49,214 nt of DNA from Candidatus Rokuibacteriota bacterium (GTDB lineage: Bacteria; Methylomirabilota; Methylomirabilia; Rokubacteriales; CSP1-6), in contig QHSP01000053.1 of NCBI GenBank assembly GCA_003220495.1, forward strand, positions 1 to 49,214, given 5' to 3'. A model generated the notes under the pieces. That model had not been told where the DNA came from. It ran no database searches and saw nothing but the letters and a program-made list of their open reading frames with translations. The first letter of the stretch is position 1. Every line of letters starts with the position of its first letter. Below, piece by piece: positions 2,349-15,183 of this stretch. Both the position numbers and the translations under genes were made by a program.

Positions 2349-3182
2349 TCAGGCGGGGGCGGGACGCTTCCAGCCGAGCCAGTCGACCACGGCTCCGCCC
2401 ATCACGCGCTCGAGGTCCCGCCCCTTCAGCCACGGCAACTCCTCGGTGAACATCGTCACGCATTGCCGATACGAGCACGGCATGCGCGTGATGTCGGTAC
2501 CCCAGAACGAGCGCTCGGGCCCGAAGGCCTCGAAGATCTGGCGCAGATAGCCGTGGATGTTCTTGTACGGATAGGGCTGGCTCGAATAGCTCGGCGCGCC
2601 CGACATCTTGACCCCGACGTTGGGATACTTCGCGAGCGCCAGCATGTCCTTGAGATCGGCGAACGCCGCATCGTCGGTGACCCCGGTGCCGCCGCCGCTA
2701 CGTCCGAGGTGATCGATGTGCAGCTTCAGGCGCGGGTGCCGCTCCGCGATTTTCGTCAGCGCCGCCATGTGCCCGCCCGCCAGGAGCCCGACCGGTAGCC
2801 CTGCCCTCTCGCATGCAGCCCAGAACCAGTCGAGCGAGCCGTCGGTCCACCAGGCCTTCTGATGCGGCTGGTTGAATGTGAACCGGAACCCGAGCATCCC
2901 CGGCCGATCGCGCCAGCGCGCGACGATCTTCTCGCGATCGGGGCTCTCGAGATCGAAATGCCCGAGGATGCAGAACTTGTCGGGGTGCCGGCGCACCGCT
3001 TCGACGGCGAGAACGTTGACGGCCTCGCCGAGAGAGCTGGGCGGATGGATCACCGCGCAATCGACCCCGGCCGAGGCCATCTCGGCCAGCGCATCATCGA
3101 CCGAATAGGTCGGGATCTGGCGATGGTGCGCGCTCATCTTGCCGTTCTGCCAGAGATGGATCTGCGAATCGACGATCAGCAT
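2349..3182 (-). CDS. amidohydrolase family TIM-barrel protein
   Basis: A 277-residue member of the amidohydrolase-2 group (the superfamily of ACMSD, LigI and lactone hydrolases). It begins MLIVDSQIHLW, where most relatives have DxHxH, so the first metal-binding pair is reduced to Q-H. Further landmarks are a strand ending HIDHLGR (about 155-161) and WGTDITR near the C-terminus, which carries the conserved Asp. Length fits the family. It is transcribed toward the secreted-protein unit and diverges from the hydroxyacid dehydrogenase operon, with about 100 bases between. The substrate is unknown; a lactone or decarboxylation substrate is possible. The altered HxH suggests a different or mononuclear metal site. 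Confidence 0.8.
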   Translation of the reverse strand: MLIVDSQIHLWQNGKMSAHHRQIPTYSVDDALAEMASAGVDCAVIHPPSSLGEAVNVLAVEAVRRHPDKFCILGHFDLESPDREKIVARWRDRPGMLGFRFTFNQPHQKAWWTDGSLDWFWAACERAGLPVGLLAGGHMAALTKIAERHPRLKLHIDHLGRSGGGTGVTDDAAFADLKDMLALAKYPNVGVKMSGAPSYSSQPYPYKNIHGYLRQIFEAFGPERSFWGTDITRMPCSYRQCVTMFTEELPWLKGRDLERVMGGAVVDWLGWKRPAPA

Positions 3183-3286: not shown

Positions 3287-4264
3287 GTGACCAAGATCCT
3301 CACGCCCCCCCAGCCCGCCCCGGTCATGGACATCGCGCGCGATTTGCTGCCGCCCGGCATGGAGCTGGTCGTCGCGGATCCGAGCAAGCCCGAGTTCTAC
3401 GACGCCGCCGCCGACGCCGAGTACTATCTGGGCTCGCCGCGCACCGGTATCGGCAACGAGTTCTTCCGCGCCGCGCCCAAGCTGAAGCTCATCCAGCTGA
3501 CCAGCGCGGGCTACGATCGCGTCGACATCGAGGCCGCGCGCAAGGCCAAGGTGCCCGTCTCCAACAACGGGGGCGCCAACTCGGTCGCCGTCGCCGAGCA
3601 CGCCGTCATGCTCATGCTGGCCGTGCTCAAGAAGCTCGTGTATCACCACAACAACGTCGTCGCCGGCAAGTGGCGCCCCGCCGACTTCGTCTCCGCTCGC
3701 AGCTACGAGGTCGAGGGCAAGCGGCTCGGCATCATCGGCCTCGGCAACATCGGCAAGAAGGTCGCGCGCCGCGTTCAGGGGTTCGACATGGACGTTCGCT
3801 ACTTCGACATCCTCCGGCTCACCGAGGACCAGGAGGACACGCTCGGCGTGCGCTTCAGCCTCTTCACCGAGCTTCTCCGCACCTCCGACGTCGTCACCCT
3901 GCACGTGCCGCTCAACGACGTCACCCGGAAGATGATCTCCACACGTGAGCTCGCGATGATGAAGAAGGGCGCGGTCCTCATCAACACCTGCCGCGGCCCC
4001 GTCGTCGACGAGGACGCGCTCCACCAGGCGCTCAAGTCGGGAACGATCGCGGCCGCCGGCCTCGACGTGATGGTCGAGGAGCCGCCGAAATCGAATCACC
4101 CGCTGTTCTCGCTCCCGAACGTCACGCTCACCCCGCACAGCGCCGGGCCGACGTGGGACAACTGGACGAAGGCGTATCGCAACGGCTTCGACAACATCCA
4201 GCGCGTGGAGGCCGGGCGGGCGCCGCTCTGGGTCGTTCCCGAGCTGCGCAGCCTGCTCGCCTGA
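3287..4264 (+). CDS. D-2-hydroxyacid dehydrogenase (NAD-dependent)
   Basis: A 325-residue protein of the D-isomer-specific 2-hydroxyacid dehydrogenase family (phosphoglycerate, glyoxylate and lactate dehydrogenase relatives), which interconverts 2-oxo acids and D-2-hydroxy acids with NAD(P)H. The Rossmann fingerprint GLGNIGKKVARR sits mid-protein. The catalytic Arg is in NTCRGPVVDE, the acidic residue in MVEEPP, and the catalytic His in TPHSAGPTW near the C-terminus. The GTG start is chosen because AGGAGGAG lies 4-10 bases upstream. It ends 8 bases before the GrdE-like gene and is almost certainly co-transcribed with it. An aldehyde, glyoxylate or 2-oxo-acid product of the Grd-like reaction could be its substrate; that link is inferred only from position. 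Confidence 0.88.
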   Translation: MTKILTPPQPAPVMDIARDLLPPGMELVVADPSKPEFYDAAADAEYYLGSPRTGIGNEFFRAAPKLKLIQLTSAGYDRVDIEAARKAKVPVSNNGGANSVAVAEHAVMLMLAVLKKLVYHHNNVVAGKWRPADFVSARSYEVEGKRLGIIGLGNIGKKVARRVQGFDMDVRYFDILRLTEDQEDTLGVRFSLFTELLRTSDVVTLHVPLNDVTRKMISTRELAMMKKGAVLINTCRGPVVDEDALHQALKSGTIAAAGLDVMVEEPPKSNHPLFSLPNVTLTPHSAGPTWDNWTKAYRNGFDNIQRVEAGRAPLWVVPELRSLLA

Positions 4265-4272
4265 GCTCGAGC

Positions 4273-5535
4273 ATGCGACTCGAGCTCCGCTGGTCCGACG
4301 TCGACGAGGTCACGGCCGCGCCCGCGACGCGCCTGGTGGGCACGCGGCTCGAGGTCGATCTCGCTGAGCTGCGTGAGCTCCTGTCCGCCGATTCGCGGCT
4401 CGCCCGGATTCGCCTCGAGCTCGCGCGTCCGGGCGAGCGCTGCCGGATCGGGCGCGTGTTCGACGTCATCGCGCCGCGGGCGAAGGCCGAGGGCGGCGAG
4501 GATTTCCCGGGAGTCCTCGGCAAGGTCGCGCGGGCCGGCCACGGGCGAACGTCGGCGCTCGACGGCGTGGCCGTGGTGGCCACGGATCAACAGACGGACA
4601 ACGTCGGCACCCTCGCCGTGATCGACATGGCCGGCCCCAATGCGGCGCTCTCGGCGTTCGGGCGCACGCACAACCTCGTGATCGCGGCGTGGCCCTCGCC
4701 GTCCACCGAGCGTTCGGACTATCTCGCCGCGGTTCGGCTCGCTGCGCTGAAGACCGCGGTGCATCTGGCCCGGACGGCGCGCGAGGCCGATCCCGACCGC
4801 GTCGACGTGTTCGCGCTATCGCCCTCTCCGCGCGTGCCGCCGGAGCTCGCCCACCTGCCGCGCGTGGCGTACGTGTTCCAGATCCACTCGCACCAGCGCC
4901 CGACCGGCCTCGACGAGGGTATTCTCTACGGCGATCCCGTGCGCCGCATGCTGCCCACGATCGTGCACCCGAACGAGGTGCTCGACGGCGCGGTGCTCCG
5001 CGGCTTCATGGGCCGCAGCGTCACCACGTGGGCGATCCAGAACCACCCGATGATCAGGGCACTCTACGCGCAGCACGCCCGCACGCTCTGGTTCGCGGGT
5101 GTCGTCGTCACCGTCGCCCAGGCGACCGAGCCCGAGCGCGTACGCTCGGCGTTTCTCACCGCCGGCCTCGTCGCCCACACCCTCGGGGCCGACGGTGCGG
5201 TCCTGACCAAGATCGGCGGCGGGGCGCCGCACGTCGACATGGCGCAGGCGGCCGCGCAGTGCGAAGCCCTCGGCGTCAAGACGACGGCCGTCGTCGAGGA
5301 CATGTCGACCGACGGTAGCGCGGAGGGCATGCTGCTCTTCGATTTTCCGGGAGTCGACGCGCTGGTGAACGTCGGGAGCAGCCAGGAGCCGATCACCTTG
5401 CCGGCGATGGACCGCGTGATCGGCGCCGACGATCTCGCGTCGAAGCTCCTGGGCGAGACGCGCGCCACCTACGGCGGGCTCTGCGGCGCGATCGAGCAGG
5501 TCGGGGCGACCAGAGTGATGGCGGAGGTGCGGTGA
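4273..5535 (+). CDS. grdE: GrdE-like glycine/sarcosine/betaine reductase component B subunit
   Basis: A 420-residue relative of GrdE/GrdG/GrdI, the proprotein subunit of protein B in clostridial glycine, sarcosine and betaine reductases. Recognisable pieces are the start MRLELRW, LARPGER, the FDVIAPR stretch, AVIDMAGP, IVHPNEVLDGA (228-240), GADGAVLTKIGGG and the C-terminal LPAMDRVIGADD. In clostridial GrdE a Cys near residue 242 self-cleaves to give the pyruvoyl group that captures the amine. Here that segment (241-254) reads VLRGFMGRSVTTWA with no Cys; only Ser249 could stand in. A pyruvoyl cofactor is therefore doubtful. It follows the hydroxyacid dehydrogenase by 8 bases and overlaps the selenoprotein B start by one base (TGATG), so tight coupling is likely. 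Family identity is firm; mechanism is not. Confidence 0.85.
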   Translation: MRLELRWSDVDEVTAAPATRLVGTRLEVDLAELRELLSADSRLARIRLELARPGERCRIGRVFDVIAPRAKAEGGEDFPGVLGKVARAGHGRTSALDGVAVVATDQQTDNVGTLAVIDMAGPNAALSAFGRTHNLVIAAWPSPSTERSDYLAAVRLAALKTAVHLARTAREADPDRVDVFALSPSPRVPPELAHLPRVAYVFQIHSHQRPTGLDEGILYGDPVRRMLPTIVHPNEVLDGAVLRGFMGRSVTTWAIQNHPMIRALYAQHARTLWFAGVVVTVAQATEPERVRSAFLTAGLVAHTLGADGAVLTKIGGGAPHVDMAQAAAQCEALGVKTTAVVEDMSTDGSAEGMLLFDFPGVDALVNVGSSQEPITLPAMDRVIGADDLASKLLGETRATYGGLCGAIEQVGATRVMAEVR

Positions 5536-6854
5536 TGGCAGCTGAGACCTTGCGGGTTGTCTGCTACCTCAACCAGTTCTTCGGCCAGCTCGGCGGCGAG
5601 GACAAAGCCGGCGTCGGGCCGCAGGTGGTCGACGGCGCCATCGGCGCCGCGCGGGCCGTTCAGCAGGCGCTCGGCGACGCGGGCACGGTCGTCGCGACGG
5701 TGATCTGTGGCGACAACTACGCCGCCGAGCAGGCCGAGCGCGCGACCGCCGAGCTGGTCGCGCTGGTCGCCGCGGCGCGCCCCGATTTGCTGGTCGCGGG
5801 GCCCGCGTTCCTGGCGGGCCGCTACGGCGTCGCGTGCGGCGCGCTCTGCGCCGCCGCGCAGGCCGAGTTGAAGATTCCGACCGTCACCGGCATGCACGCC
5901 GAGAATCCCGGCGTCGAGCTCTACCGCCGTCAGGTCTACGTCGTCCAGACCGGCGCGGAGGCCACGCGCATGCTCCCGGAAGTGCAGCGGCTCGTCGCGC
6001 TCGGGCTGAAGCTCGCCCGCGGCGAGGCGATCGGCGCCCCGGCAGCTCACGGATATTTCGCCCGCGGTGTGACGCGCAATATCGTCGCCGGCGCCAACGC
6101 CGCCGACCGCGCCGTCGCGATGCTGCTCGACAAGCTGGCCGGCCGCGCCTTCACGACCGAGGTCCCGAGACCGGCGTTTCCGCCCGTCGCCGCGCCGCGG
6201 CTCGTCAAGACGCTCGCCGGCGCGACGATCGCGCTCGTCACCGACGGCGGCCTGGTCCCGCGCGGCAACCCCGACGGCATCGAGGCGCTGAACGCGACGC
6301 GCTACGGCGCCTACAGCATCGAGGGCAAGTCGAGCCTCGACGCGGCCCAGTACGACAATCCGCATCGCGGCTACGACACCACGTGGGTGAAGCAGGATCC
6401 GCACCGGCTGGTCCCGGTCGACGTCGCCCGCGAGCTGGAGCAGAGCGGCGCCATCGGCAAGCTGCACGAAACCGTCTACTCAACGGTCGGCGTCGCGACC
6501 ACGCTCGCCCAGAGCGCGCGCATGGGCCGCGAGATCGCGGAAAAGCTGCGCGCCGCCGGCGTCGACGCCGTCATCCTCACCTCCACCTGAGGCACCAGCA
6601 CTCGCTGCGGCGCAGCGATCACGCGAGAGCTCGAGCGGGCGGGGCTGCCGACGGTGCAGGTCTCGACCATGACGCCGGTGGCCGTGATGGTCGGCGCCAA
6701 CCGCGTCGTGTCCGCCGCGGGCATCATCCATCCGCTCGGCAGCGCGGACCTCTCGCCCGAGGACGAGAAGGCGCTGCGGCGGCGCATCGTCGAGCAGGCG
6801 CTGCAGGCGCTCCGGACCGAGGTCGCCAAACCCACGGTGTTCGGGCGCGAATGA
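5535..6854 (+). CDS. grdB: GrdB-like reductase selenoprotein (in-frame UGA = Sec352)
   Basis: A 439-residue selenoprotein of the GrdB/GrdF/GrdH family, the Sec subunit of protein B that accepts the substrate and passes a carboxymethyl group to GrdA. The frame meets TGA at 6588-6590, yet family similarity continues unbroken on both sides: AVILTST, UGA, GTSTRCGAAITRELERAG, VGANRVV, HPLG, stopping at 6854. Clostridial GrdB has Sec at about 350 in UxxCxxC; here the motif is UxxSxxC (Ser355, Cys358), so the middle Cys is lost. Length matches the family (about 436). ATG at 5535 is preferred because GGAG lies 8 bases upstream; GTG at 5532 is possible. The stop overlaps the DsbA-like gene (ATGA). A caller that reads TGA as stop would report a 351-residue truncation. 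Confidence 0.9.
6588..6617 (+). promoter_or_regulatory. Sec UGA and SECIS-like hairpin in grdB
   Basis: Twelve bases after the UGA (6588-6590), CGCTGC (6603-6608) and GCAGCG (6612-6617) form a perfect 6-bp stem with loop GGC. Bacterial SECIS elements place a small stem-loop with G in its loop roughly 16-37 bases 3' of UGA, and the loop here is at +19 to +21. The hairpin lies within coding sequence. Confidence 0.7.
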
Positions 6855-7558
6855 CGGCACCCGTCCGGCTGGACGTCTTCTCCGACTACCTGTGCCCGTG
6901 GTGCTACAACGCCGCCGTGCGGCTTCGCGAGATCCAGCAGGCCTACGGCGAGCGCGTCAGGCTCCACTGGCGGACCTTCCCGCTGATTCCCGGCGAGCAG
7001 CCCGACCGGCGCGTCACGCAGAAGACGCGCGAGGGGCGGCAGCGCGTCGGCGCCGAGGAGCCGCGCGCGTTCTTCGTCCCGCCGGAGATCGACACCCCGC
7101 TGCCGTCCTCGAGCGTCCCGGCGCTGACGGCCGCCAAGTGCGCCGAGCTCCAGGGCGACGCCGCGTTCGAACGGTTTCACGAGCGCCTCTTCACCGCGCA
7201 TTTTCGCGACAACCTCGACATCTCGCGCCCCGAGGTGCTGCGCACCCTCCTCCGCGAGACGGCGCTCGATCCGGCGCGCTTCGAGGCCGACTACGCCGGC
7301 GAGGCGTACGAGGCCGTGCTGCGGGACTGCGCCGAGGGGGCCGCCTGGTTCGGTGTGTCCGGCCTGCCGACGGTCGTCCTCAACGAGAAGCTCTCGCTGG
7401 TGGGCGCCGTGCCGACGGACCGCTATCGCCTGCTCATCGACTGGATCCTGGCCGGCGAGCCGGGCGGCGTCATTCCGCTGGCGCCCGAGGCGGCGACGAG
7501 CGCCGGTCAGAGCCCGGTGGAGACTCGCGAGGGGGGCCGCGAGTCTACGCGACGATGA
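6851..7558 (+). CDS. DsbA/FrnE-family thiol oxidoreductase
   Basis: A 235-residue DsbA-like protein of the FrnE / 2-hydroxychromene-2-carboxylate isomerase type. The thioredoxin-fold active site is at residues 12-20 (SDYLCPWCY, a CPWC redox pair). A helical insertion follows, then the conserved cis-Pro region GVSGLPTVVLN around 173-183. No signal peptide is visible, so it should act in the cytoplasm. Its ATGA overlap with the GrdB-like gene suggests translational coupling. Classical glycine reductase receives electrons from thioredoxin, so this protein is a reasonable candidate for an electron or disulfide partner here; that is inference from position. Its 3' end overlaps the converging LysE gene by 14 bases. 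Confidence 0.85.
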   Translation: MTAPVRLDVFSDYLCPWCYNAAVRLREIQQAYGERVRLHWRTFPLIPGEQPDRRVTQKTREGRQRVGAEEPRAFFVPPEIDTPLPSSSVPALTAAKCAELQGDAAFERFHERLFTAHFRDNLDISRPEVLRTLLRETALDPARFEADYAGEAYEAVLRDCAEGAAWFGVSGLPTVVLNEKLSLVGAVPTDRYRLLIDWILAGEPGGVIPLAPEAATSAGQSPVETREGGRESTRR

Positions 7559-8141
7559 GGACGATCGAGACGGCGAGGAGCACCCCCATCGCGACGTTGA
7601 ACATCCTGAGCCGGCGCGGGCTCTGGAGAACGCGCTGGATCGTGGCGCCGAACGCCAGCCAGACGAAGCAGCTCGGCAACGCCGCGAGAAAGAAAAGCCC
7701 TCCGAGATAGACGGACTGCACGACCGGACTCCCCGCCCCGGCGCTGAGAAACGTTCCCGCGGCGCTCGCGCTCACGAGCCACGCTTTGGGGTTGACCCAC
7801 TGAAAGGCCGCGGCCTGGAGATAGCCGACCGGCTCTTGCTCCAGACTCGATTCGATGCGAGTCGAGGTCGCGATCTTCCACGAGAGCCAGAGGAGGAAGG
7901 CCGCGCCGCCCCAGTTGAGCGTCTTGAGCACGACCGGATAGCCGAGGACGACGCTCCCCAGACCCCACGGCACCAGAAACATCATGAGACCCATGCCGGT
8001 CGCGACACCCAAGAGGCACGGAAGCCCTCTCAGGAGACCGGCATTCGCGCCGGCCGCCGTCACCATGATGTTGCTGGGGCCGGGCGTGACCGCGGCCACG
8101 ACGGCGAAGAGAAGGAACGCGACGAGTTGCTCTGTAGTCGT
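7545..8141 (-). CDS. LysE/RhtB-family amino-acid exporter (probable ACG start)
   Basis: A 198-residue integral membrane protein of the LysE/RhtB exporter family. It begins EQLVAFLLFAVVAAVTPGPS, with the family's hallmark TPGP motif, followed by about five more hydrophobic helices and the typical FQWVNPKAWLVS. No ATG, GTG or TTG is suitably placed. A GGAG at 8149-8152 stands 7 bases before an ACG codon (8139-8141) exactly where relatives start with MTxEQL, so the gene either uses ACG or lost its ATG by one change. A TTG 10 codons upstream lacks a Shine-Dalgarno. It diverges from the AraC regulator with only 12 bases between, and probably exports an amino acid or metabolite under that regulator. 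Confidence 0.8.
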   Translation of the reverse strand, partial: TTTEQLVAFLLFAVVAAVTPGPSNIMVTAAGANAGLLRGLPCLLGVATGMGLMMFLVPWGLGSVVLGYPVVLKTLNWGGAAFLLWLSWKIATSTRIESSLEQEPVGYLQAAAFQWVNPKAWLVSASAAGTFLSAGAGSPVVQSVYLGGLFFLAALPSCFVWLAFGATIQRVLQSPRRLRMFNVAMGVLLAVSIVLIVA

Positions 8142-8153
8142 ACTCTGTCTCCA

Positions 8154-9029
8154 GTGCGTGCCAAGCAAACCAGATCCGGCGGCGAGGGTCTTGAACGATC
8201 GTGCGGAGACGCGATCGGGGGCTGGATCTCCAGCGCGAAGCCGGCCGAGGGCGTCGAGCTGTTTCGGGCGTGGTTCGCCGGCCCGGCGTACGCGAAGCAC
8301 CGCCACGATACCTATGCGATCGGCCTGACCGACTGCGGGGTTCAGGTCTTCGACTATCGGGGCGCGGCGCGGGCCAGCCTCCCTGGCGAGGTGGTCGTGC
8401 TCTATCCGGACGAGGTTCACGACGGGCGCGCCGGCACCGCCGAAGGGTTCGGATATCGGATCGTCTACGTCGAGCCCTTCCAGCTCGCTGAAGCGCTGCG
8501 GACGATCCGCGGACGCCCCTATCCGCTGCCGTTCGTGGGTGATCCCGTGTCGATGAGCACGGGGTTGGCTCGAGCCATTGCCGCCGCCTTTCAGCTCCCG
8601 TTCGAGCCGCTGGCGGCCGATGGCCTCGTCGTCGATCTGGCCGAGGGCCTGCTCGCCGCGGAGCGTGGAGGCCAGCCAGCCGGAGCCTCGCAACGGGTGG
8701 ACGCGAACGCCATCGAACGCGCTCGCCGGTTTCTCGACGCCGAGAGAACCCGGGTCGTGTATTCGGCCGAGCTGGAGTCGGTCACGGGATTGACCCGCTA
8801 CGATCTGGCCCGTCAGTTCAGGCTGATGTTCGGCACGAGCCCGTACCGGTATCTGCTCATGCGCCGCCTCGACCTCGCACGGGGGCTGATCCACCAGCAG
8901 CGGCCCTTGGTCGAGGTCGCGTGCGACGCGGGTTTCGCCGATCAGGCGCACTTCACACGCGTCTTCAAATCGGCCTTCGGGCTGACCCCGGCTCGCTACC
9001 GTGCGCTCCGAGTCGGCCAGAGGGTATGA
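8154..9029 (+). CDS. AraC-family transcriptional regulator
   Basis: About 291 residues. The N-terminal half is an AraC-type cupin sensor (KHRHDTYAIGLTDCGVQ, then GEVVVLYPDEVHDG, as in AraC_binding domains). The C-terminal 100 residues are a two-helix-turn-helix AraC domain, with YDLARQFRLMFGTSPYRYL and the signature DAGFADQAHFTRVFKSAFG. GTG at 8154 is the only start before the sensor domain, but it lacks a strong ribosome-binding site. It lies divergent to the LysE exporter, a common regulator/exporter arrangement, and its stop overlaps the GrdC start (ATGATG). It may therefore be transcribed with GrdC/GrdA and control the locus. Confidence 0.85.
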   Translation: MRAKQTRSGGEGLERSCGDAIGGWISSAKPAEGVELFRAWFAGPAYAKHRHDTYAIGLTDCGVQVFDYRGAARASLPGEVVVLYPDEVHDGRAGTAEGFGYRIVYVEPFQLAEALRTIRGRPYPLPFVGDPVSMSTGLARAIAAAFQLPFEPLAADGLVVDLAEGLLAAERGGQPAGASQRVDANAIERARRFLDAERTRVVYSAELESVTGLTRYDLARQFRLMFGTSPYRYLLMRRLDLARGLIHQQRPLVEVACDAGFADQAHFTRVFKSAFGLTPARYRALRVGQRV

Positions 9030-10513
9030 TGCCACGCGTGGCTCGTGCGACCTCTGACATGCCCGTCATCCGCGCGGTCTCCCTCGTGCTGGCGCACGTC
9101 CCGAGCCTCGTCCGTCTCGGCTCGAAGCCGCTCCGCGTGCTGCGCGAGATCGAGAAACCGATCGAGTACCTGCAGCCCCACCTGCGCGACTGGGAGGCCG
9201 CGCGCACCTACGCGCCCAACCAGGTGTTCATCGGCAACCTCGGCGTGGACGAGCTCGCGGCGTGGCCGACCCCCTGGCACCGCAATCCGATCGCGGAGGC
9301 GGGGCGCTTCGGTCCCGACGGCGAGATCATGCCCGAGGACGAGTTCTTCGGTCTGCTCGCCGCCTGCGACGGCTTCGATCTGCTCGCCCTCGACCGTGAC
9401 CTCGCCGACCGCGCGCGGCGTGCGCTCGATGCGCATCCGGTCGTGGGTCGCGAGTCCGGCCGTCCAGCCATCCGCGCCGGGGTCACGGCCGGCGTGCTCG
9501 ACGCGCGCATCGCGAAGCACCGAGCGCTGCCGATCGTCGGCACGGACGGCCGGCTCCTCGGCGCCATGCTGCCCGGCCACGACGAGGACGACACCCTCAC
9601 CGGCCAGGTCCTGCTGGAAAACCTCGCGTGCAAGGCCACGGCCGCCCTGGCCCTGCGCCATCTGCTCGCGCGACCCGGCGCGATCGCCTCGGCCGACGTC
9701 CGGTATGTCATGAACTGCGGCGAGGAGGCCGTCGGCGATCGCTATCAGCGGGGCGGCGGCAACGTCGCCAAGGCGGTCGCGGAATGGGCGGGCTGCGCGC
9801 GCGCGACGGGCAGCGACATCAAGGCGTTCTGCTGCGGGCCGATGCACGCGCTGATGCTCGCCGGCGCCCTTGTCCGCGGCGGCCTGCACGACGACGTGGT
9901 CGTGGTGGCGGGCGGCTCGCTCGCGAAGCTCGGGATGAAGTTCCAGGGCCACGTCAAGCACGCGATGCCGATCGTCGAGGACGTCCTCGCCGGCTTCGCC
10001 GTGCACGTCTCGCGCGACGACGGCGTCTCGCCAATCTTGAGAACCGACGCGATCGGTCGCCACGAGGTCGCCTCGGGCTCGGCGCCGCTCGCGGTCGTGA
10101 AGGCGCTCTACAGCGAGCCGCTCGGGCGCGTGGGGCTGACCTTGCTCGACGTGGACCGGTTCGCGCTCGAGCTGCACAACCCCGAGGCGACCGAGCCCGC
10201 GGGGAGCGGCAACGTCCCGCTCAACAACTACCGGACCCTGGCGAGTCTCGCCGTCGTCGAGAAGCTGATCGCGCGCGAGAACATCGACGACTTCGTTCGC
10301 ACCCGCGGCATGCCGGGCTTCTCGCCGACCCAGGGGCACATCGCCTCGGCGATCCCGTACCTCGGCCACGCGCGGCGCGGGCTCACCGAGGGGCGCCTCA
10401 CGCGCACGATGTTCGCGGGCAAGGGTAGTCTGTTCCTTGGACGAATGACGCAGCTGCCGGACGGGCTCTCGCTCGTCCTGGAGCGCAATGGAGCGAACGC
10501 CGGCGCGGCGTGA
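9026..10513 (+). CDS. grdC: glycine/sarcosine/betaine reductase component C subunit beta (GrdC)
   Basis: A 495-residue GrdC-family protein, the thiolase/KAS-III-like beta subunit of protein C. With GrdD it converts the acyl product on the reductase to acyl phosphate in clostridia. Hallmarks are the start MPVIRAVSLVLAHVPSLVR, NCGEEAVGDRYQRGGGN (from residue 230), ATGSDIKAFC, VVVAGGSLAKLGMKFQGH, a long PAGSGNVPLNNYRTL stretch, GMPGFSPTQGHI and GKGSLFLGRMTQLPDG. Length fits (about 500). ATG 9026 or 9029 is chosen because GAGGG precedes it; Met at 9059 is where the family alignment really begins. No GrdD gene lies nearby, so acyl-phosphate release would need another enzyme. GrdA follows after 112 bases. 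Confidence 0.92.
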   Translation: MMPRVARATSDMPVIRAVSLVLAHVPSLVRLGSKPLRVLREIEKPIEYLQPHLRDWEAARTYAPNQVFIGNLGVDELAAWPTPWHRNPIAEAGRFGPDGEIMPEDEFFGLLAACDGFDLLALDRDLADRARRALDAHPVVGRESGRPAIRAGVTAGVLDARIAKHRALPIVGTDGRLLGAMLPGHDEDDTLTGQVLLENLACKATAALALRHLLARPGAIASADVRYVMNCGEEAVGDRYQRGGGNVAKAVAEWAGCARATGSDIKAFCCGPMHALMLAGALVRGGLHDDVVVVAGGSLAKLGMKFQGHVKHAMPIVEDVLAGFAVHVSRDDGVSPILRTDAIGRHEVASGSAPLAVVKALYSEPLGRVGLTLLDVDRFALELHNPEATEPAGSGNVPLNNYRTLASLAVVEKLIARENIDDFVRTRGMPGFSPTQGHIASAIPYLGHARRGLTEGRLTRTMFAGKGSLFLGRMTQLPDGLSLVLERNGANAGAA

Positions 10514-10584
10514 GCTGCGGCACTGGAAGCGTGGTCGAGGAGCGCCACGGCTACGCCGGGGCGCTTCCGAGGGTGGAGGGGTAT

Positions 10585-10607
10585 GGGGGACCCGCGGCGG
10601 GTCCTCC
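10585..10607. promoter_or_regulatory. hairpin upstream of grdA
   Basis: GGGGGACCC and GGGTCCTCC flank a GCGGC loop, giving a 9-bp stem with one G-T pair. The inner GGACCCGCGGCGGGTCC (10588-10604) is a near-perfect palindrome. It sits between grdC and grdA, 18 bases before the grdA ATG, without a T-tract. It could be a processing or stability element, or an attenuator setting GrdA level relative to GrdC. Confidence 0.5.
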
Positions 10608-10625
10608 ATTAGAAAGGACAGTCAC

Positions 10626-11093
10626 ATGATGGATCTCCGAGGGAAGAAGGTCATCGCGCTCGGCGAGCGCGACGGCGTGCCGGGGCCCGCGGTCGCGGAG
10701 TGCGCCAGCCGCGCGGGCGCCGACGTGGTGCTGACCCTGACCGCCTGCTACGTCTGAACGGCGGCCGGCGCCATGGGCCTGGAGGATCAAGCGGCGGTGA
10801 AGCGAGTCGCGGACGAGCACGGCAGCGGGGTGGTGGTCCTTCTCGGGACTCCCGATGCCGAGAGCACGCAGACGCTCGCCCAGACCGTCGTCGCCGGCGA
10901 TCCTTCCTACGCGGGCCCGTTGGCCGGAGTCCCGTTGGGGCTCCCCGTGTTTCATGTGTTCGAGCCGGAAGTGCGCGACCAGGTGCCGGCGGACGTGTAC
11001 GAGGCCCAGGTCGCGCTGATGGAAATGAGCCTGGACCGTGACGCGATCCTCGCGGGCCTGCGCGAAGCGCGGCGCGCTGCAACCACTATTTGA
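10626..11093 (+). CDS. grdA: glycine reductase selenoprotein A (in-frame UGA = Sec44)
   Basis: A 155-residue GrdA, the small selenoprotein shared by glycine, sarcosine and betaine reductases. Its selenol takes the carboxymethyl group from protein B and passes it to protein C. The sequence reads KKVIALGERDGVPGPA, TACYV, UGA (10755-10757), TAAGAMGLEDQ, then DPSYAGPLAGVPLGLPV and an acidic C-terminus. Sec falls at residue 44, as in clostridial GrdA, in an intact CxxU (Cys41-Sec44) redox motif. Length equals the family norm. AAAGGA (10613-10618) precedes ATG 10626. Callers would report a 43-residue fragment and a separate piece. No strong hairpin follows the UGA: only a 4-bp GGCC stem (10763-10766 with 10776-10779), so its SECIS is unclear. 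Confidence 0.95.
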
Positions 11094-12444: not shown

Positions 12445-13278
12445 TTACGTCTGGTCCCTCGGGATGCCCTTCAGCGTCGTGGTCAGCAGACTCGAAGCGG
12501 CGGGGAGGTCGGGCGTCGTGACGAGCTCGAAGCAGGCGGCGCCGGTCGTGATCCGGATCGCCGCGTCGAGGCCGTCACCTCGATGCGCCAGCTGGTTGAG
12601 CGAGTTCGCATAGAGGCGAGCCGCCGCCTCGGCGGCGCGGATCGGGCGCGCCGATGGCGCCGAGGCCGCAGGGTTACGCCGCAAGAAGAAGATCGCGGTC
12701 AACCGCGTCGGGCCCGCGCCGACACCGCCCGGGAGATCCTCGGCGGCGACGTGCCAGCCCCGCGAGGAGCGCAAGGTCGCGGCGGGAATCGGATAGAAGG
12801 ACCTCGGTGGAGTCGTTTTCATCATGAGTGCGCGGGTAAAAGGGTGCACGTCCAGGAGGTCGAGATCGATCGGTCCCAGCTCATCGCTCAGATAACGGTA
12901 GCCCTGATGCGAGAGCGCCCAGCACAGAGTCGATTTCCCGCCGCCCGATTCCGTCACCAGCATGAACGCGCTGTCCGAGAGCGTCAGGACCGCCGCGTGC
13001 ACGAAAAAGAGCTCGGGCCGAAGCTTCTGCACTTCGATCGCGAAATCCTCGTCGAACCGCGCCAGAAAGGTGCCATCGTCCGGAGCCGCCCGACGCTCGC
13101 GGCCGTCGCGCTCGATGAAGAAGCCGCCCGCGTCTCGGCCGACGGTGTAGTGCAGGTCGATCGCCGCGCGTTCGGCCTGCATGTGGCCATACGTCGCGGT
13201 CACCAGCGCCCTCGTCGCGGGCTCTTCGCAGTCGATACGAATCGTACGGCCGACGGTCCTCAGGGTGACGGTGTGCAC
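12445..13278 (-). CDS. HprK-related kinase-like protein
   Basis: About 277 residues from the GTG at 13278; a TTG at 13329, overlapping the PqqD gene, is the alternative. The P-loop TESGGGKSTLCWAL (about 110-123) and the following YLSDELGPI are those of the HprK/PCK-like kinase fold, as in HPr(Ser) kinase and its many small paralogues in peptide-modification and surface-polysaccharide clusters. A conserved His-containing FFVHAAVL precedes the P-loop. It lacks the N-terminal HprK domain, so it is probably not a carbon-catabolite HPr kinase. It follows the PqqD-like gene on the same strand, and the pair diverges from a nucleotidyltransferase, a recurrent trio. The substrate is unknown. Confidence 0.8.
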   Translation of the reverse strand: MHTVTLRTVGRTIRIDCEEPATRALVTATYGHMQAERAAIDLHYTVGRDAGGFFIERDGRERRAAPDDGTFLARFDEDFAIEVQKLRPELFFVHAAVLTLSDSAFMLVTESGGGKSTLCWALSHQGYRYLSDELGPIDLDLLDVHPFTRALMMKTTPPRSFYPIPAATLRSSRGWHVAAEDLPGGVGAGPTRLTAIFFLRRNPAASAPSARPIRAAEAAARLYANSLNQLAHRGDGLDAAIRITTGAACFELVTTPDLPAASSLLTTTLKGIPRDQT

Positions 13279-13300
13279 GCGACGAATCCGGAACGCGTTA

Positions 13301-13573
13301 CTATTTGCGGGAGCTTTCGAGGAGACCAAGCCGCGTGAATTGCTGAAGCGCGGCGGTGACCGATGTCGCCGCGGTGTCGGGATCGACCTCGAAGGCCTCG
13401 ACGAGCTGCTCGGCGATGTCTCGCGGTGTCGACCGGCCGTCGCACCGTTCCCAGATGAAGCTGGCGGTCTGATTGAGCTGATGCACCTGGTCTGCCTTGC
13501 GGTCGAGGACCACCACTTCGTCTTCGACGAGGCGGGCGTTGAGGTCGGTTCGGCGTCTGGGAATGTTCGTCAT
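13301..13573 (-). CDS. PqqD-family peptide-binding chaperone-like protein
   Basis: A 90-residue small protein of the PqqD/RRE fold, which in RiPP pathways holds the leader of the substrate peptide for modifying enzymes. Visible are LVEDEVVVLDRKADQVHQLN, SFIWERCDG and the helical C-terminus with DIAEQLVEAFEVD. This wing-helix pattern with xxLNxTAxxIWxxCDG is characteristic. ATG at 13573 is used; an ATG five codons upstream is possible. It precedes the HprK-like gene by about 20 bases and is divergent to the nucleotidyltransferase with 63 bases between. Free-standing PqqD proteins next to HprK-like and nucleotidyltransferase genes suggest an uncharacterised peptide or surface-modification pathway. 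Confidence 0.85.
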   Translation of the reverse strand: MTNIPRRRTDLNARLVEDEVVVLDRKADQVHQLNQTASFIWERCDGRSTPRDIAEQLVEAFEVDPDTAATSVTAALQQFTRLGLLESSRK

Positions 13574-13636
13574 CCATCCATGATCCATTGGTTGGTGTCT
13601 CGCCGTCAACTTGGATATCGTTGAAGAAGGCCCGAC

Positions 13637-14878
13637 ATGCCTTCCCTCGTCCATTTCCTGCACGCGGCCAGCCAAGACCGCAAGGACCTCGCCCTGGAGG
13701 ACTTTTCGGAACGTCAGATCCGGTGGGTGATCGAGGCGGGCCTGGGTCCATTGCTCCTCCGACACGTCGCCGACGGCCCCAGGACACGGACCGCCCCGAC
13801 GTGGCCGCTCCTCAAGGGAGCGGACCTGACCGCGCGCCTGACGACCGCCGAGCGCCTGGACGCCATGGAGGAGATTCTTCGAGCGTGCGACGGGCGGATC
13901 CGGCCTCCGACTCTGCTCAAGGGGATTTCCGTTGGTGGACAGTTCTATCCGGAGCCTCATCTGAGGCCAATGAGCGATATCGATTTCCTCGTCGCGACGC
14001 GCGATCTGGCGCCGGTGGAGGCGGCCCTCTTCGACCTCGGATACCGCCAGGAGTCGACGCACCCCCGGGAATTCTACGAGACGCATCACCACACGACTCC
14101 GTTCCGTCATCCTCGCACCGGCGTGTGGGTCGAGGTTCATCGCGGGCTCTGCGCGAGATCGAGCCCGGTGGGCTCGGACGCGCCGTTCGGTGCGCAGCGT
14201 GTGCTTGCCGAGCAGAGCGCCTCGGAGTTTCGAGGGCACGCCGTCTACCGTCTGAGCGAGGAGCTGCAGATCGTGTATCTCGCGGCCCATTGGGCGTACG
14301 ACTTCCGGCTGGCGGGCGGCCTCGTGGCCATGCTCGACACGATCCACCTGCTGAAGAACGCCCGACCGATCCGCTGGGAGCGACTCCTGGAGCTGCTCGA
14401 GGGGACGGTCGCCGCAACCGCCGTGTATCTCGTGCTCGCCTACCTCGATCGGCACGAGCTACTCGATCTCCCCTCAGGACTGATCGGCGAGATCGCTCAC
14501 CGACAACGAGCGCTGGGCCGCCCGAGTCTCTGGCTGCTTCACGGCATCATCGACCGGTACGTGACCAACGGACGCGACCTCGGGCTGCTCATGAGCGAGC
14601 GCAACCTTCCGATCATCTGGGAGAGCCTGTTGCGGCCCTGTCCTGGATTCCGGAAGCCCCTGCTCGCTGGCTGGAAGTTGTTGCCGTCGCGCTCCTGGCT
14701 CATGCGATCGGTGCCGAGCCCCGCTCCACGGAGCTCGGCGCCTGACGCGGCGCGACGCGGCTCAGAATCGAGCGCTAGCGGCGGTCGTGATGATGATGGC
14801 GATTCGAGTGCTCGCGCTGACCGGACCGTCCCGAACCGTTCTGGGCGAAGGCTGCGGCAGCAGGCAGACTCAAAATAA
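13637..14878 (+). CDS. nucleotidyltransferase family protein (NTP_transf_5-like)
   Basis: A 413-residue protein resembling the 'uncharacterised nucleotidyltransferase' family. The core is LLKGISVGGQFYPEPHLRPM followed by SDIDFLV (about 93-119), the DxD metal site of a polymerase-beta-like fold, then ETHHHTTPFRHPRTGVWVEVH (about 150-171). Helical segments fill the rest. The last 45 or so residues are low-complexity, Ser/Arg/Asp-rich, and run antisense through the Tat-peptide gene (14775-14945); they look like read-through and not a folded domain. It diverges from the PqqD/HprK pair and probably shares their pathway, perhaps transferring a nucleotide or sugar-nucleotide unit. The actual reaction is unknown. 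Confidence 0.8.
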   Translation: MPSLVHFLHAASQDRKDLALEDFSERQIRWVIEAGLGPLLLRHVADGPRTRTAPTWPLLKGADLTARLTTAERLDAMEEILRACDGRIRPPTLLKGISVGGQFYPEPHLRPMSDIDFLVATRDLAPVEAALFDLGYRQESTHPREFYETHHHTTPFRHPRTGVWVEVHRGLCARSSPVGSDAPFGAQRVLAEQSASEFRGHAVYRLSEELQIVYLAAHWAYDFRLAGGLVAMLDTIHLLKNARPIRWERLLELLEGTVAATAVYLVLAYLDRHELLDLPSGLIGEIAHRQRALGRPSLWLLHGIIDRYVTNGRDLGLLMSERNLPIIWESLLRPCPGFRKPLLAGWKLLPSRSWLMRSVPSPAPRSSAPDAARRGSESSASGGRDDDGDSSARADRTVPNRSGRRLRQQADSK

Positions 14879-14945
14879 TGGGCGCCGCGAACGCGGCCTT
14901 CTTGATGACCTCTCGTCTCGTTACCGACTGATCTTTCTTGGTCAC
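14775..14945 (-). CDS. 56-residue Tat-leader peptide with His-rich tail
   Basis: A small gene starting at GTG (14943-14945), 7 bases after a GGGGGG run that can act as Shine-Dalgarno. Residues 1-34 form a textbook twin-arginine leader: SVTRREVIKKAAF (RR with Lys two residues after a hydrophobic pair), a hydrophobic core APIILSLPAAAAFA, and an AxA cleavage site. The predicted mature peptide is only 22 residues, QNGSGRSGQRE followed by HSNRHHHHDRR. It lies at the end of the nucleotidyltransferase gene on the opposite strand, close to PqqD and HprK-like genes, so it could be the substrate peptide of that set. A metal-binding or modified exported peptide is possible. Nothing recognised is longer or better conserved in this stretch. 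Confidence 0.65.
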   Translation of the reverse strand: MTKKDQSVTRREVIKKAAFAAPIILSLPAAAAFAQNGSGRSGQREHSNRHHHHDRR

Positions 14946-15183
14946 GCTCAATCCCCCCGTTTCCAGATTCAGAGTGTTCGACCGAGACCCCAGGCGCTCG
15001 AGCGCAAGACTCCTGCCAAGGCCCCGAGCCGGGCACTTCGGGTGTTTTCGCCGATTAGAGGGCCGTCTCCAGCGGATTCCTCTCATGCGATTTGCGGACA
15101 CGGAACTTCGTTTGCACAGTTGTGGGTAACCAGCCCCACACTTCCATCAATCGAAACACCCGCGCGTTCGAACCACCCGCGCG

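Follow-up and report, generated by a model that had tools for sequence, protein, structure and literature searches.

A Grd-like selenoprotein gene cluster of Rokubacteria without GrdD and without the pyruvoyl-forming cysteine of GrdE, and its proposed multi-phylum clade

The stretch of DNA analyzed here (the window) comprises the 49,214 nucleotides of contig QHSP01000053.1 (contig C119). It derives from a Rokubacteria MAG (5.98 Mb, 98.4% complete), a soil bacterium of an uncultured phylum. The Grd-like genes lie between positions 3287 and 11093 in two units. The first unit consists of an NAD-dependent D-2-hydroxyacid dehydrogenase (HDH, 3287..4264, + strand; PF02826, 213 bits, and PF00389), a GrdE-like subunit (4273..5535, +; PF09338, 302.8 bits), a GrdB-like selenoprotein (5535..6854, +; PF07355, 452 bits; TIGR01918, 515.7 bits) and a DsbA/FrnE-like thioredoxin-fold protein with a CPWC motif, whose nearest solved structure is FrnE (6851..7558, +; PF01323, 86.8 bits). 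HDH and GrdE are spaced by 9 bp, the start of GrdB lies inside the stop of GrdE and that of DsbA inside the stop of GrdB (ATGA), so that these four genes probably form one translationally coupled operon. The second unit contains an AraC-family regulator (8157..9029, +; PF02311, PF12833), whose stop overlaps the start of GrdC (ATGA), the FabH-like component C beta GrdC (9029..10513, +) and the selenoprotein GrdA (10626..11093, +; PF04723, 190.8 bits). Between both units, a LysE-type exporter is encoded on the opposite strand (7545..8150, −; PF01810, 68.4 bits). An amidohydrolase_2 protein (2349..3182, −; PF04909, 98.8 bits) is divergent from HDH, a synteny that is kept in the genus. The profile matches bear out the initial annotation, which had described a Grd-like system split into two units with HDH and a DsbA-like protein woven in.

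The split layout with LysE and AraC is common only to the genus members G049, G050 and G051. LysE, present in all three, is outside the conserved core, and AraC is likewise a genus-level neighbor. In another genome (G091), an ABC transporter occupies the gap between the Grd units, and in phyla outside Rokubacteria the Grd genes are often contiguous. Orthologous clusters were found in at least four Rokubacteria genera, which argues that the gene grouping is more than chance. HDH shows an intact NAD-binding motif (GxGxxG at 151) as well as the CRG (Arg, 235), EE (264) and TPH (His, 282) motifs. Its association with the Grd genes is conserved: it was found in the window and in six of nine sampled Rokubacteria clusters, while the remaining three show another gene, another arrangement or a contig end at this position.

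According to profile searches, the genome encodes one GrdA (that of the window), one GrdC and three GrdB-GrdE pairs, but no GrdD. It also encodes SelB (356.6 bits, cut-off 242) and tRNA-Sec (69.8 bits, cut-off 47), located ∼3 kb apart on contig C152. The in-frame TGA of GrdB (6588..6590, +; Sec352 counted from the ATG at 5535) is conserved among homologues, and that of GrdA (10755..10757, +; CYVUTAAGAM) is the single TGA in all 16 GrdA proteins of the phylum. Candidate SECIS-like hairpins folded no better than shuffled sequences in the GC-rich DNA of the locus.

Two proteins of the cluster agree with glycine reductase proper: GrdA carries the CxxU motif (CYVU), and GrdC scores 591.5 bits against the model NF040746 (cut-off 450). 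GrdB belongs to the component B superfamily of glycine, sarcosine and betaine reductases, given its in-frame Sec and a TIGR01918 score far above the cut-off of 65.45, whereas it stays below the cut-off of the GrdB equivalog TIGR01917 (472.2 bits vs 602.2). The models for betaine reductase GrdH (NF040795, 455.2 bits vs 775), sarcosine reductase GrdFG (NF040794, 490.7 of 800; NF040793, 226.4 of 780) and D-proline reductase PrdB (TIGR04483, 91 bits vs 300) were not reached either, nor was that for the fluoroacetate reductase subunit FarE by the GrdE-like protein (NF053623, 172.7 bits vs 675). GrdB lacks the UxxCxxC motif of glycine reductase proper; its only motif change is the replacement of the first Cys (Sec+3) by Ser (STUGTSTRCGA, with UGTSTRC at the core). 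The motif is thus altered as initially stated, but the Sec codon is intact and only one resolving Cys is gone, the second being kept. The TGA is retained in every sampled GrdB homologue read through the motif.

At the cleavage site of GrdE, an alignment of 103 homologues shows the pyruvoyl-forming Cys in 27 (canonical VSACDKN, VAACDK, IIACQKN). The window protein reads GF----MGRSVTTW here, with four residues deleted and no Cys at the SACDKN site. The reported lack of Cys in residues 241-254 is therefore correct and accompanied by a shortened loop. Cleavage at Ser249, which the initial annotation had named as evidence that would speak against its proposal, is disfavored, since this residue is Asn in the close orthologues L060 and L062 and the loop is deleted. 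Judged from this alignment, GrdE is predicted to be incapable of forming a pyruvoyl group by the known route. The non-Ser+3 paralogues of the same genome likewise lack the Cys, indicating that pyruvoyl loss is wider than the clade described below. The AlphaFold model of GrdE has a pLDDT of 90.7; searches by sequence or fold returned no convincing solved relatives of GrdE or GrdB.

We calculated a maximum likelihood tree of 96 GrdB proteins after removal of the Sec motif columns. A single branch separates all 39 proteins with Ser at Sec+3 from the rest (bootstrap 100, SH-aLRT 99, 200/200 bootstrap trees). The underlying loci were collected for their similarity to the GrdE of the window, which leaves deep diversity undersampled; L104, L110 and L079 form long end branches. 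We propose that the Ser+3 GrdB proteins, including that of the window, constitute one monophyletic clade as judged by this tree. These proteins occur in Rokubacteria, Tectomicrobia, Delta- and Betaproteobacteria, Planctomycetota, Nitrospinota, Chloroflexi/SAR202, a "Bacillota" MAG and Ca. Aristotella. The Cys is missing from all 39 of their GrdE partners, and in 38 of these the loop is shortened.

This tree bears on a betaine-type reductase, in which the B component would split a quaternary ammonium or sulfonium acetate without need of a pyruvoyl group, everything else resembling betaine reductase. In favor of this reading, GrdI reportedly is no proprotein (PMC10838667), and at curated GrdH loci its Cys site is variably occupied by C, A or S. 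Yet UGTCTRC is retained in true GrdH and the loop in GrdI, the GrdH score of the window protein falls well short, a BCCT/OpuD transporter gene was not seen next to the window cluster, and curated betaine GrdH proteins (above the cut-off) are placed among Clostridia, far from the Ser+3 clade. We therefore regard this reading as unlikely, though it is the strongest of the alternatives. The Ser+3 branch is distinct, found in many phyla and apparently undescribed. As to the suggestion of an undescribed system in the window, the traits do mark a multi-phylum clade, but this is a new branch of a known reductase type and not a wholly new system, nor is it specific to the window.

Flanking genes of the clade vary by phylum and include a luciferase-like monooxygenase, an amidohydrolase and varied transporters. 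Besides Grd parts and thioredoxin-fold proteins, no adjoining gene family recurs across phyla. The luciferase-like monooxygenase was found in 10 loci, without a consistent position next to the Grd genes, and we rejected the neighboring genes as a guide to the substrate.

In the 98.4%-complete genome, a PF02504 search found no GrdD anywhere. The single PF02504 gene is PlsX, embedded in the order yceD-plsX-fabH-fabD, and the absence of GrdD claimed for the window thus extends genome-wide. In all eight genomes with a canonical GrdC (G121-G124 and G126-G129, from Firmicutes, Synergistota and the delta group), a second PF02504 gene, GrdD, directly follows GrdC. At most one PF02504 gene was present in 24 of the 25 Ser+3 genomes checked, our own included; only Aristotella (L110) departs from this, a member that sits on a long branch and encodes a canonical GrdC-GrdD pair elsewhere in its genome. 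The two PF02504 matches in G106 belong to a single gene that is in two pieces. No PF02504 gene at all is seen in five of 40 genomes, which indicates some contribution of incompleteness or divergence. GrdD is also missing beyond the clade, as Desulfofundulus thermobenzoicus (G115) lacks a second PF02504 gene despite having both GrdC and the Cys.

These data weigh against an ordinary glycine reductase whose GrdE is processed elsewhere and whose GrdD is missing through draft incompleteness. The PF09338 and PF07355 memberships and the missing 1-2% of the genome fit this explanation, but with Asn in place of Ser249 in L060/L062, the deleted loop, GrdD absence in 24 of 25 clade genomes and a TIGR01917 score of 472 bits against 602, we consider it the least probable of all readings.

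Acetate kinase is encoded in all eight GrdD genomes and absent from eight of 17 GrdD-less genomes, among them three Rokubacteria at least 95% complete. This pattern fits an acyl-CoA product. Acetyl phosphate is a possible product as well, because our genome encodes an acetate kinase. The acyl-carrying residue of GrdC would be Cys268, which is invariant in 42/42 sequences and is aligned to the FabH catalytic Cys. The AlphaFold model of GrdC (pLDDT 87.9) matches the folds of FabH, OleA and BioZ in Foldseek with modest TM-scores of 0.3-0.4 by query length, and several of these matches were solved with acyl-CoA bound. A few fixed columns separate GrdC proteins of GrdD-less and GrdD-bearing genomes, for example Lys304 versus Asn; common descent may be the cause.

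The DsbA/FrnE-like gene directly follows GrdB in all nine Rokubacteria clusters with downstream sequence. The codon of the first CPWC Cys reads TGA in six of them (UPWC; L055, L057, L059, L060, L061, L062), that of L057 being seen only as a stop since the contig ends just after it, and TGC in three (the window, L054, L058). Residues around this position are identical between the two forms. Read as Sec, these codons indicate that the DsbA beside GrdB is itself a selenoprotein in relatives of the window, which is a new point. The exchange of Sec and Cys at the redox position of a GrdB-locked DsbA supports its role as reductant. Together with the GrdB overlap, it makes the DsbA link stronger than the initial annotation had it. 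In other phyla, the Grd cluster contains a thioredoxin (WGPxCxPC; L071, L074, L091, L096, L100, L105) or a DsbH-type protein (L067, L068, L082, L083, L092, L093). An in-frame stop lies within the Trx motif of L094.

A DsbA partner, the loss of a protecting Cys and the presence of soil and pelagic lineages among the hosts could also be expected of a peroxidase-like thiol/selenol redox or repair system built from Grd parts, which would not reduce small acids at all. Such a role would require neither GrdA nor a GrdC that carries the FabH-type Cys, yet both stay clustered with the B components across phyla, and we judge it improbable.

The reading we prefer, with a probability of roughly one half, is a Sec-dependent reductase of α-C-X bonds that acts on a substrate other than a primary amine, is driven by DsbA and releases its acyl thioester from GrdC without GrdD. 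The genes and their motifs are read from the sequence, and the steps are inferred from the canonical glycine reductase mechanism. GrdE-GrdB would bind an α-substituted carboxylic acid; as no Schiff base can form without pyruvoyl, its leaving group is probably something other than a primary amine. The GrdB selenolate would attack C2 and displace the leaving group, the carboxyalkyl group would pass to the GrdA selenol, and the CxxU pair of GrdA would cleave it reductively. Cys268 of GrdC would catch the acyl group as a thioester. In the absence of GrdD, this thioester needs another acceptor, for which CoA is the simplest guess and the most plausible. The DsbA-like (seleno)protein would re-reduce GrdA and GrdB instead of thioredoxin, and HDH probably forms, removes or provides electrons for a 2-hydroxy or 2-keto acid of the same pathway.

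The statement that substrate capture, electron supply and product release "must therefore differ" from clostridial glycine reductase was too strong. Cys-less GrdE proteins have precedents in GrdI and FarE, and FarB also lacks CxxC, so the chemistry need not be exotic. For GrdI (betaine) and FarE (fluoroacetate), neither of them a proprotein, the argument that no Schiff base is needed has already been made (PMC10838667). FarBE suggests a haloacid reductase in which the GrdB selenolate would attack a carbon-halogen bond: FarE lacks the pyruvoyl Cys and FarB the CxxC (PMC10838667), and the FarE model is among the three NCBIfam matches of the window GrdE. This match reaches only 172.7 of 675 bits, however, the window GrdB keeps the second Cys, and two genes of the far operon, for a radical-SAM protein and an MFS antiporter, were not seen nearby. 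We think a haloacid substrate somewhat less likely still than a betaine-type one.

In the open-access literature, we found nothing on Grd in Rokubacteria or SAR202, on GrdD-free variants or on the Ser+3 clade. A 2026 selenoproteome review presents GrdA and GrdB in their canonical role (PMC13188914). One survey filtered GrdB on the motifs AHGGxD and TxGNxTxV (PMC9751293), which the window GrdB (HRGYD, STVGVATTL) does not match, and GrdB without UxxCxxC has been taken as a likely pseudogene (PMC6778437). Thirty-nine Sec-keeping members in many phyla argue against the latter reading here. Surveys using either rule would miss the Ser+3 branch.

Glycine reductase is the textbook example of how anaerobic clostridia link Sec chemistry to substrate-level phosphorylation. 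Clade-wide loss of the pyruvoyl group and of the acetyl-phosphate-forming subunit, with Sec kept, would mean that this core chemistry was adopted for a different substrate and that the acyl group meets a different fate, and the Sec-DsbA partner offers a direct, testable electron route. A broader proposal, which we offer only tentatively and hold to be rather doubtful, is that pyruvoyl-free and GrdD-free Sec reductases are widespread in uncultured, partly aerobic phyla, cleave α-C-X bonds, pass the acyl group of GrdC to CoA and not to phosphate and, in Rokubacteria, are driven by a dedicated Sec-DsbA (UPWC) that takes the place of thioredoxin.

Compared with known systems, the cluster shares with clostridial GrdABCDE the set GrdE-GrdB-GrdA-GrdC, Sec in GrdA and GrdB, the CxxU of GrdA and the FabH-like Cys of GrdC. 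It differs in lacking GrdD and the pyruvoyl Cys, in the shortened loop, in UxxSxxC instead of UxxCxxC, in a DsbA-like partner instead of TrxA/TrxB and in the extra HDH. Betaine reductase GrdHI resembles it in that the GrdI-type subunit is not a proprotein, but has UxxCxxC in GrdH and the loop in GrdI and belongs to a separate clade; most GrdHI genomes contain GrdC-GrdD. FarBE of Cloacibacillus is similar in that FarE lacks both processing Cys residues and FarB the CxxC, whereas the window GrdB keeps the second Cys, the window GrdE lies far below the FarE cut-off, and the operon partners are different. FarBE feeds canonical A and C components, and its genome is listed with grdD. DsbA/FrnE-like selenoproteins (UxxC) are known from marine surveys and share the thioredoxin fold and UPWC/CPWC; here they are locked to GrdB in one operon. 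What is new is the coupling to Sec-DsbA and the loss of both pyruvoyl and GrdD throughout the clade, and another chemical bond is probably broken.

In six Rokubacteria relatives, the first Cys codon of the CPWC motif in the DsbA gene adjacent to GrdB is TGA (loci L055, start 12579; L057, start 9323; L059, start 6734; L060, start 12600; L061, start 12570; and L062, start 10589). The product is a UPWC selenoprotein, which gene callers would cut short at the TGA. A thioredoxin-like gene adjoins the Grd cluster of locus L094 (2-190, minus strand). Its active site is interrupted by an in-frame stop (WGPQ*VPC), and the product is probably a Sec-thioredoxin.

The window's own genome (G000) harbors two additional GrdB-GrdE pairs (L035 and L036; G000:C59:2085-4644 and G000:C144:40650-43164), with Cys-less GrdE proteins, the GrdB motif UGTCNRC or UGSCHRC, and aroC and an ABC exporter as neighbors. 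Both pairs must depend on the same single GrdA and GrdC of this genome. B components are greatly multiplied in Deltaproteobacteria NC_groundwater_1447 (G135, locus L120), where a single genome carries about 20 GrdB-family genes with in-frame TGA.

At 12445-15101, the window groups an HPr-kinase-like protein (labeled by eye; without a Pfam match), PqqD, an NTP_transf_5 nucleotidyltransferase and a small Tat-signal-like ORF, which looks like a peptide-modification cluster. A luciferase-like flavin monooxygenase repeatedly occurs near Grd clusters, in ten loci that include L066 (7368-8576); this recurrence would point to life under oxic conditions.

In Desulfofundulus thermobenzoicus (G115, locus L096), GrdB, GrdC, Trx and GrdA are present and GrdE carries the pyruvoyl Cys. 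Since GrdD was not found in this genome, GrdD loss also occurs alongside a retained pyruvoyl Cys.
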